From positions 28,780 through 92,779 of IMG/VR virus record IMGVR_UViG_3300028024_000007: a DNA stretch of 64,000 nucleotides. The stretch is one strand, 5' to 3'. Each line of letters starts with the position of its first letter. Positions within the stretch are counted from its first letter, which is position 1. The notes beneath the pieces are model-generated. The model ran no database searches. It was not told the origin of the DNA and worked only from the letters and a program-made list of their open reading frames with translations. Source of the DNA: a virus. The position numbers and the translations under genes were made by a program. Below, piece after piece: positions 28,384-54,554 of this stretch.

Positions 28384-29463
28384 ATGGCCGTCACCATCAT
28401 CACCCGCGGGGAGAACATCCAGGGAGGCAACGTCTCGGCGGCCAGCCTTCGCAAGGACGACTTCCAGATCAACGAGCAGCACCTGCACGGCCTCGACATC
28501 GCGTCCGGGACCACGCTCGCTCCGGCAGGCCCGCAGGAGTACTTCCACGTCACCGGGACCAGCACGACCAGCTTCTACAACAACGCATTCCTGCTGGACG
28601 GCCAGCAGGTCGTCCTCTACTTCGTCTCCGCGCTGACGCTGAACCACAACGCCGGCGGCGGCGGTGTCAGCCAGGCTGCATTCGTCCTGTCGTCCGGGGC
28701 GAACGCATCGGTAGCCGCTGGGCAGTCAGCCACCTTCCGGTTCGAGAACGCCACCAACAAGATGGTCCAGGTCGGTGGCGTCCTGGGCAGTTCCAGCGGC
28801 GTCGTGTCCGTCGGCGCGGGCACGGGCATCTCCGTCACGGCAGGGTCCAACCCGATCGTCAGCAACACCGGCGTCCTGGCCGTGACCCACGGGACCGGCA
28901 TCAGCGTCACGGGGACGGGCGCCAACCCCGTGGTCAACAACACCGGGGTCCTGTCGGTCATCAGCGGGACCGGCATCAGCAGTTCCGGCGGGCAGAACCC
29001 CGTCATCACGAACACCGGCATCATCGGCCTAGTCCCTACCGCCGGGGTGGACTCCACGGGTGGGCAGAACCCGATCATCTCGGCCCACATAAAGGGGCTG
29101 CTGCAGCTCGGCGGGCTGATCCCGAGCATGGGGTCAACGACGATCTGGTTCTACGGGGGGAACTTCGCGTCCCCCACGCGCTTCGAGTTCCCGATCGAGT
29201 CGTTCATGGCGAACGGCGCCACCACGTGCTTCCTCCGCGGGTACGTTGCCGACTTCGTGGGCCCCGACGCGGTGGTCATCCTCACCGTCAACGGGGCCGT
29301 CGTGTCCGGCTCCGCCCACGGCATCGGCGTCAGCAGCATCGGAGGGGCGATCGCCCTCGGGCCGCTGACCATCCCGGCCGGGGTCAATCGCGGCATGGGC
29401 CTCGCCATAATCCCGATCAGCTCCAGCGGCTGCGCCTACGCCGCCACGGTCGAATTCAACTAA
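28384..29463 (+). CDS. Tail fibre protein C
   Basis: This 359-residue protein shares its N-terminal domain (EYFHVTGTSTTSFYNNAFLLDGQQVVLYFV) with fibre B and carries four GTGISxTG / NPVxxNTG repeats (137-235). The distal domain is only about 120 residues and unrelated to A or B, ending in a Ser/Gly-rich beta segment. It is one base from fibre B. It may be a short fibre or adhesin. Confidence 0.7.
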   Translation: MAVTIITRGENIQGGNVSAASLRKDDFQINEQHLHGLDIASGTTLAPAGPQEYFHVTGTSTTSFYNNAFLLDGQQVVLYFVSALTLNHNAGGGGVSQAAFVLSSGANASVAAGQSATFRFENATNKMVQVGGVLGSSSGVVSVGAGTGISVTAGSNPIVSNTGVLAVTHGTGISVTGTGANPVVNNTGVLSVISGTGISSSGGQNPVITNTGIIGLVPTAGVDSTGGQNPIISAHIKGLLQLGGLIPSMGSTTIWFYGGNFASPTRFEFPIESFMANGATTCFLRGYVADFVGPDAVVILTVNGAVVSGSAHGIGVSSIGGAIALGPLTIPAGVNRGMGLAIIPISSSGCAYAATVEFN

Positions 29464-45204: not shown

Positions 45205-45428
45205 TGGCCGGCATGGCGAACCCGCGCGAGTACACCGAGCGGGAGGTCCAGCTCATCGAGCGCGCCGTCACGCTCCTCCGCCGTGTGCGGGACGACCTGG
45301 TGGACGCCGGGGCCCTGCGCGCGGCGGAGGCGGCCAGGGAGTCGCTCCGGTCGGCGGAGGGGGCCCTCCGGCACATCCGCGGAGTGGTGGACCGGACGAG
45401 GGGGGGGCGCAGTGCGCCTGGCAGCTGA
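45204..45428 (+). CDS. Small helical protein overlapping the helicase start
   Basis: This 74-residue helical protein (REVQLIERAVTLLRRVRDDLVDAGALRAAEAARESLR) starts at ATG one base inside the previous stop and overlaps the helicase start by 17 bases. Unknown function. Confidence 0.5.
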   Translation: MAGMANPREYTEREVQLIERAVTLLRRVRDDLVDAGALRAAEAARESLRSAEGALRHIRGVVDRTRGGRSAPGS

Positions 45429-47640
45429 CAACCTGTGGGCGGTCATCGAGGCCGCCACGGCGGAGGAGCTCGACTGGCTGGACGGCTACCTGACCGTCCC
45501 GGTGAAGGGCGCCGAGTACAGCGAAGCGTACGAGCGCGGCGTGTGGGACGGGTCGGTGAAGCTCCTGGACCGGAAGCGGTCCCGGATCGCCTCCGGGCTC
45601 CTGCGCCTGGTGGCCGGCCGCGCGAAGGAGGCCGGGTTCGCCTTCGAGGTGAAGGACGTCAGGACCAAGCCGTTCTGGGTCGTCGACAACCGGTGGGAGC
45701 CAGACGCGATCCCCTGGCTCCGCGACTACCAGCGCGAGGCGCTGGGGGTCGTGCTCGGTCGCGGGCGGGGCATCGTCTCCATGCCGACCGGATGTTTGTC
45801 GGGCGACACGGAGATCGGGGCGTACCGGGCTGGTCGCAGCTTTCGGATCAAGATCCGGGATCTGGAGCGCGGACAGAACGGGCGCGGCCTGCGCCCGTGG
45901 ACGCAGGATATCCAGACCAAGGTCCGGTGCCGAGAGGAGGACGGGTTCATCAGAGTTCGTTCGATGAAGGGGGTCTACCGTAGCGGCATCAAGACCACCT
46001 TCACCGTGGAGACGAAGGGCGGAAAAAAAATCCGCGCGACTGCAGACCATCGGTTCCTCACGGTCTCGGGATGGGAGCGCCTGGGAGACCTGTCGCCCGG
46101 GATGCACGTGTTCGTGGAGAAGTCACGCGGAGGCGGAGGTAAGCCGAAGGGGAAGAAGAATTGGTACCAGCTCGTCGCCGGGCTTCGCGCGCACCCGTAC
46201 GTTGGGCGGAAGGGCGTGAAACCCGGCAAGGGCGGGTGGAGTGTACCGAAGCACAGGCTCGTCGCGGAGGCGCGACTCAACGGACTCTCGTTCGAGAAGT
46301 TCGTCGGACTGGTCAGGCGTGGTCGCATCGCTGACCTGAAGTTCCTGGACCCGAAGGTCGTCTCCGTCCACCACCGGGACGAGAACCCGCGCAACAACGA
46401 AGGCTGGAACCTGGATGTCATGCCGAAGGACGAGCATCACAGGGTTCACGGGAAACAGGGCGGATGGCAGCACGTCACGGCCTCAACGTTCCTGGACGAG
46501 ATCGTCTCGATCGAACGGTTCGGAGAGGAGGAGACGTTCGACATCGAGATGGAGGCCGATCCGCGCAACTTCATCGCGAACGGGATCGTCGTTCACAATT
46601 CTGGAAAAACACAGGTGTTCTCCGCCCTCGGCGCGTGCGTGGGGATCCGCTGGCTCGTCCTGGTCGACACGAAGGACCTGATGCACCAGGCGGCCGACCG
46701 CTTCTACCAGCTGACCGGCGAGCGCGCCGGCCTGGCGGGGGACGGCGAGTGGGAGCCGAGGCGGTACACCGTCGCGACCCTGCAGACCCTGCACAAGCAC
46801 ATGGGGGACAAGGGGCGCGTCGACCAGCTCCTGGCGTCGGCGCAGGGGATGATCGCGGACGAGGTCCAGGTCCTCTCGGCGACCGAGTTCCGCAAGGTGG
46901 CGGTGGCCACGGTGAACGCCTGGTGGCGGGTGGGGTTCTCCGCCACGCCGTTCGAGCGGTCCGACGAGGCGGACTACCGGGCGATCGAGGTGCTCGGGCC
47001 GCTCATCCACGACGTGATGCCGGGACCGCTCATCGCCGCCGGCTGGCTGGCCGAGCCGAGGATCTGGATGGTCCGGCACCAGCACCAGAAGATGACCGGG
47101 TCGTTCGCCGAGGTGTACGAGGCCGGGGTCACCCTGTGCGAGGGGCGCAACGCGCTGGTCAGGCGCATCGTCGCCGACCGCGACCTCTGCCCACGGCCGT
47201 CGATGCTGTTCTTCTCGAAGCTCGCCCACGGGCGGGCGCTCGACCGGTCGCTGAACCCGCTCGGGGTCCGCACCGTGTTCGTTGAGGGGGCCTCGAGCTC
47301 GCGGGCGCGGGACTCCGCCCGCCACCAGCTCCGCGTCCGCCTGCGCGACGTCCTGGTGACGTCCAAGGTGTTCAACAAGGGGATCGACATCCCCGAGGTC
47401 GAGGGGGGCGTGAACGCCGCCGCCGGCGACAGCCGGATCGACGCGCTCCAGAAGGTCGGCCGGCTCATGCGCGTGGTGGAGGGCAAGAACCGCGTCGTCC
47501 GGTACTTCGACTTCGACGACGTCGGGAACCGCTGGCTCGAGCAGCACTCCCGCCACCGCGCCGACGCGTTCCGATCTCGCGGGTACACCGTCCACCACGT
47601 GCGCCCGGAGGACCTGGGCGCGATCGCGAGGGCCGCGTGA
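45412..47640 (+). CDS. SF2 DNA helicase (UvsW-like) with an intein in Walker A
   Basis: This 742-residue precursor is a superfamily 2 helicase. Motif I is split as PTG (125-127) and SGKT (397-400) by an intein of 269 residues at 128-396. Removing it leaves a 473-residue enzyme. Further motifs are IADEVQVLS (about 481-489, in place of DExH), SATPFERSDE (about 510-520) and VGRLMRVVEGKNRVVRYFDFDD near the C-terminus, which fit phage branch-migration and repair helicases such as UvsW. The start is GTG 45412. The 45412-45792 and 46600-47640 parts have typical high third-position GC. Confidence 0.85.
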   Translation: MRLAADNLWAVIEAATAEELDWLDGYLTVPVKGAEYSEAYERGVWDGSVKLLDRKRSRIASGLLRLVAGRAKEAGFAFEVKDVRTKPFWVVDNRWEPDAIPWLRDYQREALGVVLGRGRGIVSMPTGCLSGDTEIGAYRAGRSFRIKIRDLERGQNGRGLRPWTQDIQTKVRCREEDGFIRVRSMKGVYRSGIKTTFTVETKGGKKIRATADHRFLTVSGWERLGDLSPGMHVFVEKSRGGGGKPKGKKNWYQLVAGLRAHPYVGRKGVKPGKGGWSVPKHRLVAEARLNGLSFEKFVGLVRRGRIADLKFLDPKVVSVHHRDENPRNNEGWNLDVMPKDEHHRVHGKQGGWQHVTASTFLDEIVSIERFGEEETFDIEMEADPRNFIANGIVVHNSGKTQVFSALGACVGIRWLVLVDTKDLMHQAADRFYQLTGERAGLAGDGEWEPRRYTVATLQTLHKHMGDKGRVDQLLASAQGMIADEVQVLSATEFRKVAVATVNAWWRVGFSATPFERSDEADYRAIEVLGPLIHDVMPGPLIAAGWLAEPRIWMVRHQHQKMTGSFAEVYEAGVTLCEGRNALVRRIVADRDLCPRPSMLFFSKLAHGRALDRSLNPLGVRTVFVEGASSSRARDSARHQLRVRLRDVLVTSKVFNKGIDIPEVEGGVNAAAGDSRIDALQKVGRLMRVVEGKNRVVRYFDFDDVGNRWLEQHSRHRADAFRSRGYTVHHVRPEDLGAIARAA
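45793..46599 (+). mobile_element. Intein with HNH endonuclease
   Basis: The intein runs from Cys 128 (block A CLSGDTEI) to Asn 396 (VVHN) before Ser 397. Block B (TADHRFLTVSGWERLGDLSPGMHV), and the C-terminal block (ETFDIEMEADPRNFIANGIVVHN) are clear. The middle contains an HNH nuclease (VSVHHRDENPRNNEGWNLDVMPKDEHH). It is inserted precisely between G and S of GSGKT, a favoured and essential site. Lower third-position GC is typical of recent acquisition. Confidence 0.9.
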
Positions 47641-50358: not shown

Positions 50359-50549
50359 GTGCGGTCGCCTCCGGGTGGGCCAAGAAGCGCGCTCGGATCC
50401 TGTCCCTCCATGGGAATTCCTGCACATGGTGCGGAGCGGTCGACACGAAGCTCCCGATCCCTCCCCAGGGATGCTGGCTGCAGGTCGACCCTCGCGGACC
50501 GTCGGAGCGCGGCGTGGTCTGCGTTCGGTATTGCGGAGGTGGGATTTGA
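50355..50549 (+). CDS. Small CxxC protein
   Basis: This 64-residue protein starts at GTG overlapping the previous stop. It contains CTWCGAVD (about 23-30) and Cys residues 42, 57 and 61, suggesting a zinc knuckle. It overlaps the methyltransferase start by four bases. Confidence 0.5.
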   Translation: MSAVASGWAKKRARILSLHGNSCTWCGAVDTKLPIPPQGCWLQVDPRGPSERGVVCVRYCGGGI

Positions 50550-51613
50550 GGTTCGGCTCCCTGTTCTCCGGGATCGGAGGTCTCGACCTGGCGCTCGAAC
50601 ACTTCGGCCACGCCCCCTTGTGGCAGGCCGAGCGAGACCCGTACGCGCGTAGCGTGCTGGCCCGTCACTGGCCCGAGGTCAGTTGCTTTCACGACGTGAA
50701 GGAGATCGATGGCCACGCCCCCCCCCCTGACATCATCTGCGGCGGTTTCCCCTGCCAGGACATCTCGAATGCCGGCAAGCGCGTCGGCATCGACGGCGAG
50801 CGATCCGGCCTCTGGTCGGAGTTCGCTCGGATCGTTCGCGAGCTTCGACCGCGCATCGTCCTCGTGGAGAACGTCGCAGCTCTCACTGTTCGGGGGCTCG
50901 ATCGGGTTCTCGGAGATCTGGCCGCGCTCGGGTTCGATGCGGAATGGGACGTGCTTCGAGCGTCCGACGTCGGCGCGCCCCATCTCCGAGCGCGAATCTT
51001 CATTCTTGCCTACGCCGAGCGCGACGCCTTACGGTTCGAATCAGGGTGGCTCGGCGGGCAGGGTCGGGCCGACTCGTCTGAGTCTCGACTCGATGGCGGC
51101 GCAGGGGCTGTGGCTGACGCCCACGGCAGCGGACAGTCGCCGATCGAGCGGAACGTACGCGCGGGGGAGTCTGACGCTATCCGGTGCCGTACGGACTTGG
51201 CCGACTCCGACTCCGACGGCGGGGGACTCCAGAGCCAGCGGCGGGAGGAACACGACCGCAGCGAAGCCAGGCTCACGGACGCACGCGGGGACGTCGCTTA
51301 CGGACGCCGTTGTTCGACAGAGCTGGCCGACACCGACGGCGCGGAACGGCGATCCGAAGCGGGGGATGCCGTCGGCGGAGCTCGCGCAACGGAGACTGGA
51401 CGACGGGAAGCGCAACCTGGAGGACGCCATCGCGGTCTCCGGCGCTGGGGCAACTGGAGCGTTGAACCCGAGGTGGGTCGAGTGGCTCATGGGGTTCCCG
51501 GACGAGTGGACCGCCTGCGCTGCCTCGGAAACGCCGTCGTCTGGCAGCAAGCGGCGCTCGCGATCGAAGTCCTGACGGCGCGGGCACTGTCTGACGTCGG
51601 CGGTGCCGCATGA
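50546..51613 (+). CDS. Cytosine-5 DNA methyltransferase (Dcm type)
   Basis: This 355-residue protein starts at TTG and has motif I FSGIGGLDLALEHFG (7-21), catalytic PCQ in GGFPCQDIS (69-71), ENV (108-110), motif VIII LRARIFILAYA (147-157) and motif X LGNAVVWQQAALAIEVL (about 326-342). Residues 165-310 are a variable, Asp/Arg/Ser-rich target-recognition region. It would methylate cytosine, protecting phage DNA from restriction. Third-position GC is lower than in the neighbours and most of it overlaps a second long frame (next entry). Confidence 0.85.
   Translation: MRFGSLFSGIGGLDLALEHFGHAPLWQAERDPYARSVLARHWPEVSCFHDVKEIDGHAPPPDIICGGFPCQDISNAGKRVGIDGERSGLWSEFARIVRELRPRIVLVENVAALTVRGLDRVLGDLAALGFDAEWDVLRASDVGAPHLRARIFILAYAERDALRFESGWLGGQGRADSSESRLDGGAGAVADAHGSGQSPIERNVRAGESDAIRCRTDLADSDSDGGGLQSQRREEHDRSEARLTDARGDVAYGRRCSTELADTDGAERRSEAGDAVGGARATETGRREAQPGGRHRGLRRWGNWSVEPEVGRVAHGVPGRVDRLRCLGNAVVWQQAALAIEVLTARALSDVGGAA
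50709..51575 (+). CDS. Overprinted phage protein in the +1 frame of the methyltransferase
   Basis: The frame from ATG 50709 (288 residues) is nested inside the methyltransferase but has recognisable conserved motifs of a widespread phage family: SSSWRTSQLSLFGG, EIWPRSGSMRNGTCF, LPTPSATPYGSN and LNPRWVEWLMGFPDEWT. Such motifs I recall from proteins encoded beside or within Dcm genes in prophages. The two proteins therefore seem to share DNA, with compromised codon usage in both. Expression and function of the overprinted one are unproven. Confidence 0.55.
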   Translation: MATPPPLTSSAAVSPARTSRMPASASASTASDPASGRSSLGSFASFDRASSSWRTSQLSLFGGSIGFSEIWPRSGSMRNGTCFERPTSARPISERESSFLPTPSATPYGSNQGGSAGRVGPTRLSLDSMAAQGLWLTPTAADSRRSSGTYARGSLTLSGAVRTWPTPTPTAGDSRASGGRNTTAAKPGSRTHAGTSLTDAVVRQSWPTPTARNGDPKRGMPSAELAQRRLDDGKRNLEDAIAVSGAGATGALNPRWVEWLMGFPDEWTACAASETPSSGSKRRSRSKS

Positions 51614-53302: not shown

Positions 53303-53661
53303 TGGCGAACCAAGTGGAGATGGTGGAGCCGTGGGTGGTCTGTCCGAGCACGGGCCCCGAGGACCCGCTGGCGGCGGAGTTCGTGGCTACCCAGGATGGC
53401 GAATCGGTCATCGAAACGGACGGGAACGATGAGATCATCTTCGCCTCGCTCGAGGTCCGCGAGCTCGTCAGGCTGGCTCCGAAGATGCTGGCGCTGCTCC
53501 GCGACCTCGAGTGGGAAGGTAGCGCGTTCGTGCTGGAGGGAAGTGGCGGCTGTCCGCAGTGCGGCGCGGAGGGCTCAGCGGAGTATCCCGGTAAGCATGA
53601 GGACGGGTGCGTGCTCGCCGAGATCTTGAACGCCGTGGACGCCGTCCGAAAAGGGACCTGA
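53302..53661 (+). CDS. Hypothetical protein with Cys pair
   Basis: This 119-residue protein has a helical middle and a CPQCGAEGSAEYPGKHEDGC segment (about 84-103) that suggests a zinc finger. It starts at ATG overlapping the loader stop. Function unknown. Confidence 0.55.
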   Translation: MANQVEMVEPWVVCPSTGPEDPLAAEFVATQDGESVIETDGNDEIIFASLEVRELVRLAPKMLALLRDLEWEGSAFVLEGSGGCPQCGAEGSAEYPGKHEDGCVLAEILNAVDAVRKGT

Positions 53662-54554
53662 TGGCGAAGCGCATCGCTCTCCCTGTCGAGCTCGTCGGCA
53701 TGGCCGTGATCGCGAGTGTGAGCGGCGGCAAGGACTCGACCGCGCTCCTTCTGGCGCTGCGTGAGGAGGGCATCCCGCATCGGGCCGTGTTCGCTGATAC
53801 GGGGTGGGAGGCGCCGGAGACATACGCCTATCTCGACCTGCTGCGCACCCGGATGGGGCTCGCCATTGACGTGGTCGGAACGCCAGGCGGGATGGAGGCG
53901 AAGATCCGAGCGCGGGCTGGGTTCCCGGGCCGGATGCAGCGATGGTGCACGCGTGAACTGAAACTGGAACCGTTGCGCGCCTACCACGATCGCGTCGAGG
54001 AGGAGACCGGCCTCGAGAGCGTCTGCGCGGTCGGCGTGCGCGCGGCCGAGAGCGACGCCCGGGCAAAGATGCCGGAGCTCGAAGACGAGCCGGACGGGCC
54101 GCGGTCGTGGGGCGGATGGGTGTGGCGGCCGCTCATCCGCTGGACGGTCGAGGACGTGATCGGCATGCACAACCGGCACGGCATCCCGGTCAACCCGCTC
54201 TACCAGCGCGGTCACAACCGGGTCGGCTGCTTCCCGTGCATCTACGCGGGCAAGGAGGAGATCGCGCTGGTGGCCGAGCACGCGCCAGAGAAGATCGACC
54301 AGATCGCGGCGCTCGAGGTCGAGATGACGGCCCTGCGCGCTGAGCGAAACGCCGCCGAGCCGGAGCGCTACAAACACCCGGAGGCGACGTTTTTCATGGC
54401 TCGGCATGGCGTCGAGCCGATGGACATTCGCGCCGTCGTCGATTGGTCGCGCACGTCGCGCGGAGGACGGCAGCTGAAGCTCTTGGCCGATCCGCCGCAG
54501 GGAGGGTGCATGCGCTGGGGGATCTGCGACACGCCCTCCGAAGAAGCGCCCTGA
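53661..54554 (+). CDS. PAPS-reductase-family (ATP-pyrophosphatase) protein
   Basis: This 297-residue protein has the PP-loop SGGKDST (21-27), C96 in RWCTRELKLEP, C190 and C193 in GCFPCIYAGKEE, and terminal Cys near 282 and 288 (GGCMRWGICD), a layout of the phosphoadenosine phosphosulfate reductase family found in phages and in DNA sulfur-modification systems (DndC-like). It may take part in sulfur addition to nucleic acid, or act in cysteine metabolism; the sequence alone does not decide. Confidence 0.65.
   Translation: MAKRIALPVELVGMAVIASVSGGKDSTALLLALREEGIPHRAVFADTGWEAPETYAYLDLLRTRMGLAIDVVGTPGGMEAKIRARAGFPGRMQRWCTRELKLEPLRAYHDRVEEETGLESVCAVGVRAAESDARAKMPELEDEPDGPRSWGGWVWRPLIRWTVEDVIGMHNRHGIPVNPLYQRGHNRVGCFPCIYAGKEEIALVAEHAPEKIDQIAALEVEMTALRAERNAAEPERYKHPEATFFMARHGVEPMDIRAVVDWSRTSRGGRQLKLLADPPQGGCMRWGICDTPSEEAP

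Follow-up and report, generated by a model that had tools for sequence, protein, structure and literature searches.

A C5 cytosine methyltransferase gene (F1) in the window, as we call the whole 64,000-nucleotide stretch analysed here (positions 28,780–92,779 of the 92.8 kb virus record IMGVR_UViG_3300028024_000007), contains a second gene (F2) nested in its +1 frame. On the sequence evidence, F2 is almost certainly a genuine protein-coding gene, and F1 and F2 are likely to form one C5 cytosine methyltransferase with the target-recognition parts carried on F2. The first-pass annotation had proposed that one stretch of ~860 bases encodes two conserved proteins; both reading frames were found where it placed them (F1 to 51613; F2 at 50709–51575, +1 frame), all the motifs it quoted are present, and stop depletion, synonymous-site conservation and F2-frame codon periodicity bear out the double coding. 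The proposal can be refined in two respects: F2 is probably a second subunit of the same enzyme and not an unrelated protein, and the overprinting runs in both directions, F1 and F2 each being the primary frame somewhere.

Organisation of the locus

F1 starts at a proposed TTG at 50546 and ends at 51613. The features of the two genes are as follows.

50546–51613, plus strand: F1, C5 cytosine methyltransferase open reading frame with motifs I–VIII, a variable linker and motif X (PF00145, 4e-41, residues 1–158; M.HhaI match over motifs I–VIII; LGNAVV motif X conserved)
50699–50704, plus strand: AAGGAG, Shine-Dalgarno-like site by sequence, 4 nt upstream of the F2 ATG
50709–51575, plus strand: F2, nested +1-frame gene, 288 aa, ATG start (stop depletion, synonymous-site conservation, codon periodicity)
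50709–51005, plus strand: F2 N-terminal domain (SPARTS, SSWRTSQ, WPRSGSMRNGTCF), over F1 motifs IV–VIII (conserved in two alignments; homologue of the nested ORF in MM1/SpSL1)
51006–51110, plus strand: F2 module 1, LPTPSATPYGSNQGG... type (module families)
51111–51197, plus strand: F2 module 2, WLTPTAADSRRSSGTYARG... (module delineation and sequence)
51198–51323, plus strand: F2 module 3, WPTPTPTAGDSRASGGRN...SLTDAVV (module families)
51324–51461, plus strand: F2 module 4, WPTPTARNGDPKRGMPS...KRNLEDAI (module delineation and sequence)
51462–51512, plus strand: motif IX in the F2 frame, LNPRWVEWLMGFPDEWT (hhalign against motif IX of complete C5 methyltransferases, E 0.001)
51479–51541, plus strand: F1 C-terminal conserved block RVAHGVPGRVDRLRCLGNAVV with motif X (F1 consensus)
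51114–51347, plus strand: 21-nt repeat, three copies at module starts (51114, 51207 and 51327; repeat search)

The genes 3' of the methyltransferase are DnaC-like, PAPS-reductase-like and DnaB-like. The PAPS-reductase-family protein (53607–54554, plus strand; PF01507, 2.5e-29) lies near the methyltransferase, and a PAPS-reductase-family gene likewise adjoins the methyltransferase in the record of Salmonella phage SLP-22. No restriction enzyme was recognised among the scanned neighbours of F1/F2, so that the enzyme looks like an orphan methyltransferase. Elsewhere in the window, a superfamily-2 helicase ORF (ResIII, Helicase_C; 45283–47640, plus strand) has its P-loop split by an intein that matches PF14890, TIGR01445 and TIGR01443 and carries an HNH-like sequence.

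Selection on the second frame

The first-pass annotation had allowed that the second frame might be free of selection; very strong selection on F2 was found instead. F2 lies at offset +1 of F1 in all 166 loci collected, including all 80 that were fetched by F1 alone, in contigs with a GC content as low as 41%. The same arrangement is present in 79 of 80 bacterial loci fetched by F2 (GC as low as 36%), the exception, L189, appearing frame-disrupted.

When F1 codons were permuted synonymously in 134 homologues, 588 stops were expected in the F2 frame and 103 were observed, most of which sit in the C-terminal block and represent the usual terminator of F2. The third frame, used as a control, contained 1192 stops against 1268 expected. 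As a negative control, 15 complete C5 methyltransferases gave 140 +1-frame stops against 140.1 expected; E. coli Dcm relatives proved too alike to serve as the set of ordinary methyltransferases and were swapped for complete enzymes from 12 genomes. Synonymous sites give the same picture. Upstream of the overlap, third-base identity at 4-fold sites is 0.31 (0.26 expected) and thus near saturation, rises to 0.8–0.97 at many of the sites in the F2 motifs WRTSQ, TWPRSGMMRNG, WPTP and LNPTWVEWLMGFP, and returns to 0.25–0.3 past the F2 stop, so that conservation begins and ends with F2.

A further possibility is that the second frame is no gene and merely echoes the strong conservation of F1 in GC-rich DNA. 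Some F2 motifs are indeed partly dictated by F1 (SPARTS by FPCQDIS), and a BLOSUM permutation similarity score was not relied on, since it also rose in the third-frame control (z 46), so that by itself this test is not clean. The comparison of Shine-Dalgarno signals with the third frame is also not fully fair, since that frame has fewer start codons. An echo is nevertheless very improbable, as stop depletion is confined to the F2 frame and extends to low-GC genomes, synonymous conservation has the boundaries of F2, codon periodicity follows the F2 frame, and complete methyltransferases give a neutral result. A chance or GC-driven ORF is ruled out by the stop counts, synonymous sites and periodicity.

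The two frames are constrained over different parts of the overlap. In pairs of loci picked by nucleotide similarity alone, mismatches upstream of the overlap fall at F1 codon positions 1/2/3 with frequencies of 0.15/0.12/0.47, whereas in the VIII–IX region the frequencies are 0.42/0.15/0.10, the pattern of a gene in the F2 frame. F1 nonetheless remains open across the VIII–IX region, with 0 stops against 392 expected if F2 alone mattered, although F1-frame codon periodicity is absent over the modules; F1 is presumably kept open there so as to reach motif X. The mismatch pattern and the openness of F1 together indicate that F1 is primary over motifs I–VIII and F2 over the recognition region, and around motifs IX and X both frames are constrained. 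Compared with its nearest relatives (L006–L008), the window F2 is 0.71–0.74 identical and F1 over the same bases 0.62–0.65.

Partition of the methyltransferase motifs

Searches with each frame separately, as the first-pass annotation had suggested, returned PF00145 for F1 (4e-41) and PHROG 1008 for F2 (1e-37). The PF00145 match covers residues 1–158 only and ends past motif VIII, and comparison with solved enzymes (M.HhaI and others) likewise covers motifs I–VIII only. The catalytic motifs I, IV, VI and VIII expected of PF00145 are all found in F1, PCQ and ENV being invariant in 63 homologues; by homologue consensus and motif pattern, motif X is conserved in F1 and motif IX is absent from it.

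F2 has no match in Pfam, NCBIfam or the PDB. Weak PDB profile matches to apolipoprotein E were taken as compositional and this candidate relative was rejected; a Pfam scan of 114 F2 members yielded isolated single-member matches and no shared family, and AlphaFold2 models of the F2 single chain were of low confidence (pTM 0.32 and 0.25 in two runs). PHROG 1008 is named 'DNA methyltransferase', which probably reflects second-frame products deposited under that name, for example those of Firecracker and Samy.

F2 consists of a conserved N-terminal part, modules starting W/L-PTP-TA and then the sequence LNPxWVEWLMGFPxGWT. This last sequence matches the motif IX found in complete C5 methyltransferases, over a short stretch of 17 columns (hhalign E 0.001, 41% identity). 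Among 208 loci, motif IX is found in F2 in 183, in F1 in three (L002, L003 and L232), in neither by pattern in 22 and in both in none.

The 208 F2 proteins contain 612 modules, between one and six each, with a median length of 35.5 residues. Recurrent module types are found in different phages at different positions: of 244 module pairs that are ≥75% identical, 112 differ in ordinal position and 68 join F1 proteins that are ≤65% identical. The window F2 has four modules, and the three copies of the 21-base element, each at a module start, are separated by intervals of 93 and 120 bases and could aid recombination.

A probable two-chain enzyme

The relation between F2 and truncated methyltransferases was examined in 12 whole genomes picked for carrying F2, an internal comparison and not an estimate of prevalence. 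All 13 of the PF00145 matches ending past motif VIII (profile position 161–216) coincide with F2, with one further partial match without F2 (G004:C252:88865) counted as an exception, compared with 0 of at least 24 complete methyltransferases whose match runs through motifs IX–X (Fisher 3e-9). Stand-alone F2 was not found in the 80 bacterial loci or the 12 genomes, except for one weak 40-residue match. The C-terminal parts also shift between frames: in Firecracker and Samy, F1 ends past motif VIII and F2 holds IX and X; in ReT1v-2, IX and X are in F1 and the modules in F2; and in WillSterrel the modules, IX and X are all in the methyltransferase frame. Such shifts fit a single enzyme built from two chains, and complementation by C5 enzyme fragments has been described for M.BspRI, M.BsuRI, M.HhaI and M.SssI (PMC3404938).

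In the proposed two-chain enzyme, F1 would fold the SAM-binding and catalytic domain (motifs I–VIII) and add motif X after an open, poorly constrained linker. Translation of F2 would start internally from its own ribosome-binding site, and F2 would supply the small domain, composed of an N-terminal docking segment, variable target-recognition modules of ~36 residues and motif IX. Each module may specify one DNA target, in which case module exchange would alter which host restriction sites the phage masks.

Alternatively, F2 could be an independent protein, such as a methyltransferase regulator or an anti-defence protein, nested by happenstance. This reading, which we regard as unlikely though worth weighing, gains from the fact that the streptococcal phages MM1 and SpSL1 and their relatives, whose methyltransferases are complete, retain the N-terminal domain in the +1 frame, with 0 stops against 344 expected (see below). 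It leaves unexplained why motif IX is in F2 and missing from F1, and why full-length F2 is restricted to methyltransferases lacking IX–X, and it is at odds with the failure to find stand-alone F2 in the bacterial loci and genomes above.

If ribosomes shifted from the F1 frame to that of F2 past motif VIII, the product would instead be one fused methyltransferase. All motifs are present in F1 and F2 combined, and frameshifting is among the options raised for mycobacteriophage Corndog gp6/gp7, for which two products or a frameshift were left open (PMC4351075). Such a fusion is quite improbable here: F2 is conserved 5' of any such site, across motifs IV–VIII, and has its own start signal, and F1 stays open to motif X, which a +1 shift would lose. 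Frameshift fusion is thus disfavoured by the upstream conservation of F2 and the openness of F1.

A nested ORF in complete streptococcal methyltransferases

Totally overlapping C5 methylase ORFs have been described in S. thermophilus 5093-group phages, pneumophage MM1 and Tn5252 (PMC5601072), and the specificity of the SpSL1 methyltransferase has been measured (PMC6755750). As in the window, MM1 has a second conserved ORF nested +1 in its methyltransferase, and the +1-frame proteins of MM1 and SpSL1 are homologous to the N-terminal domain of F2 (E 2e-16 and 5e-14). In contrast to the window, the methyltransferases of MM1 and SpSL1 are complete with their own motif IX, and neither modules nor motif IX are present in their nested ORFs, which weakens a simple rule that F2 occurs only with truncated methyltransferases.

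In 62 distinct loci of this class, fetched by the nested ORF itself, that ORF contains 0 stops against 344 expected, whereas no stop depletion is seen downstream of it (732 against 583), and synonymous conservation is raised only around the overlap. In streptococcal and related phages (L309, L310 and L311–L390), the nested +1 ORF, CSLSDILEE...YFLS, is under strong selection. The N-terminal domain of F2 therefore stands by itself as a conserved nested protein. Its presence within complete streptococcal methyltransferases indicates a role beyond carrying recognition modules, a role that the two-chain model leaves unexplained and that counts against the model. Docking to the catalytic domain, or its regulation, would fit both classes.

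Comparison with known split and multispecific enzymes

M.AquI and M.EcoHK31I are two-polypeptide C5 enzymes, the small chain of M.EcoHK31I carrying motif IX alone (PMC3404938). By description, M.EcoHK31I (YGGCCR) resembles F1/F2 in that the large chain has motifs I–VIII and X and the smaller chain has IX: F1 likewise has I–VIII and X and lacks IX, and motif IX is found on F2, a second polypeptide under selection (E 0.001). The small chain of M.EcoHK31I was reportedly found by Lee et al. in 1995 to be encoded within the large gene in a different frame. The two systems differ in that the recognition domain of M.EcoHK31I is predicted in the large chain, whereas in F1/F2 the constraint between VIII and IX is on the nested frame, which encodes a modular array there.

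M.AquI and Corndog gp6/gp7 are split C5 methyltransferases, as F1/F2 is proposed to be, but carry motif X on the second chain, whereas it is on F1 in the window phage; in the Corndog relative Firecracker, the chain encoded downstream is related to F2 and has its overlap in the +1 frame. Bacillus phages SPR, phi3T and rho11 have multispecific C5 methyltransferases with several recognition units of ~40 residues in tandem between motifs VIII and IX, as reportedly described by Trautner et al. in 1996, a study cited in PMC12707154. F2 has tandem modules of about this length in this position, though in the second frame; the likeness is one of layout, as the Bacillus phage enzymes are encoded as one chain in one frame and F1/F2 in two frames.

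Distribution and implications

The arrangement was already known in single instances (M.EcoHK31I, Corndog gp6/gp7, streptococcal phages and Tn5252). New here, and not found in the open-licence literature searched, are the evidence of selection, the wide distribution and the finding that the nested frame encodes an array of exchangeable modules. The overlap is old and, by record titles, recurs in more than a dozen phyla; the bacterial loci are from Pseudomonadota, Actinomycetota, Bacillota, Bacteroidota, Synergistota, Verrucomicrobiota, Gemmatimonadota, Spirochaetota, Chloroflexota and others. A single Roseovarius chromosome record has five F2-query matches of equal score and length (L210–L214), which suggests a multi-copy prophage or mobile element.

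In the phage records looked at, a single frame has often been annotated and its partner omitted or cut short, as in SEN5, SLP-22, Rctr197k and ReT1v-2. In ReT1v-2 and Rctr197k (L003 and L004), it is the second-frame ORF that is annotated and the methyltransferase frame that is truncated or missing. Since such records keep one frame of two, it is probable that many of the 'DNA cytosine methyltransferases' in databases are half-annotated, and inactive clones could have this explanation.

It is rare for a long same-strand overlap to be under strong selection in both frames, and that of F1 and F2 is testable in E. coli. If the modules set specificity, they would constitute a natural parts list for methylation targets. 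More broadly, and here we hold the case for and against to be evenly balanced, a very widespread class of C5 methyltransferases may keep its whole target-recognition machinery, exchangeable modules and motif IX, in a nested +1 gene, and the phages and prophages of over a dozen bacterial phyla may reprogram methylation specificity by shuffling those modules.
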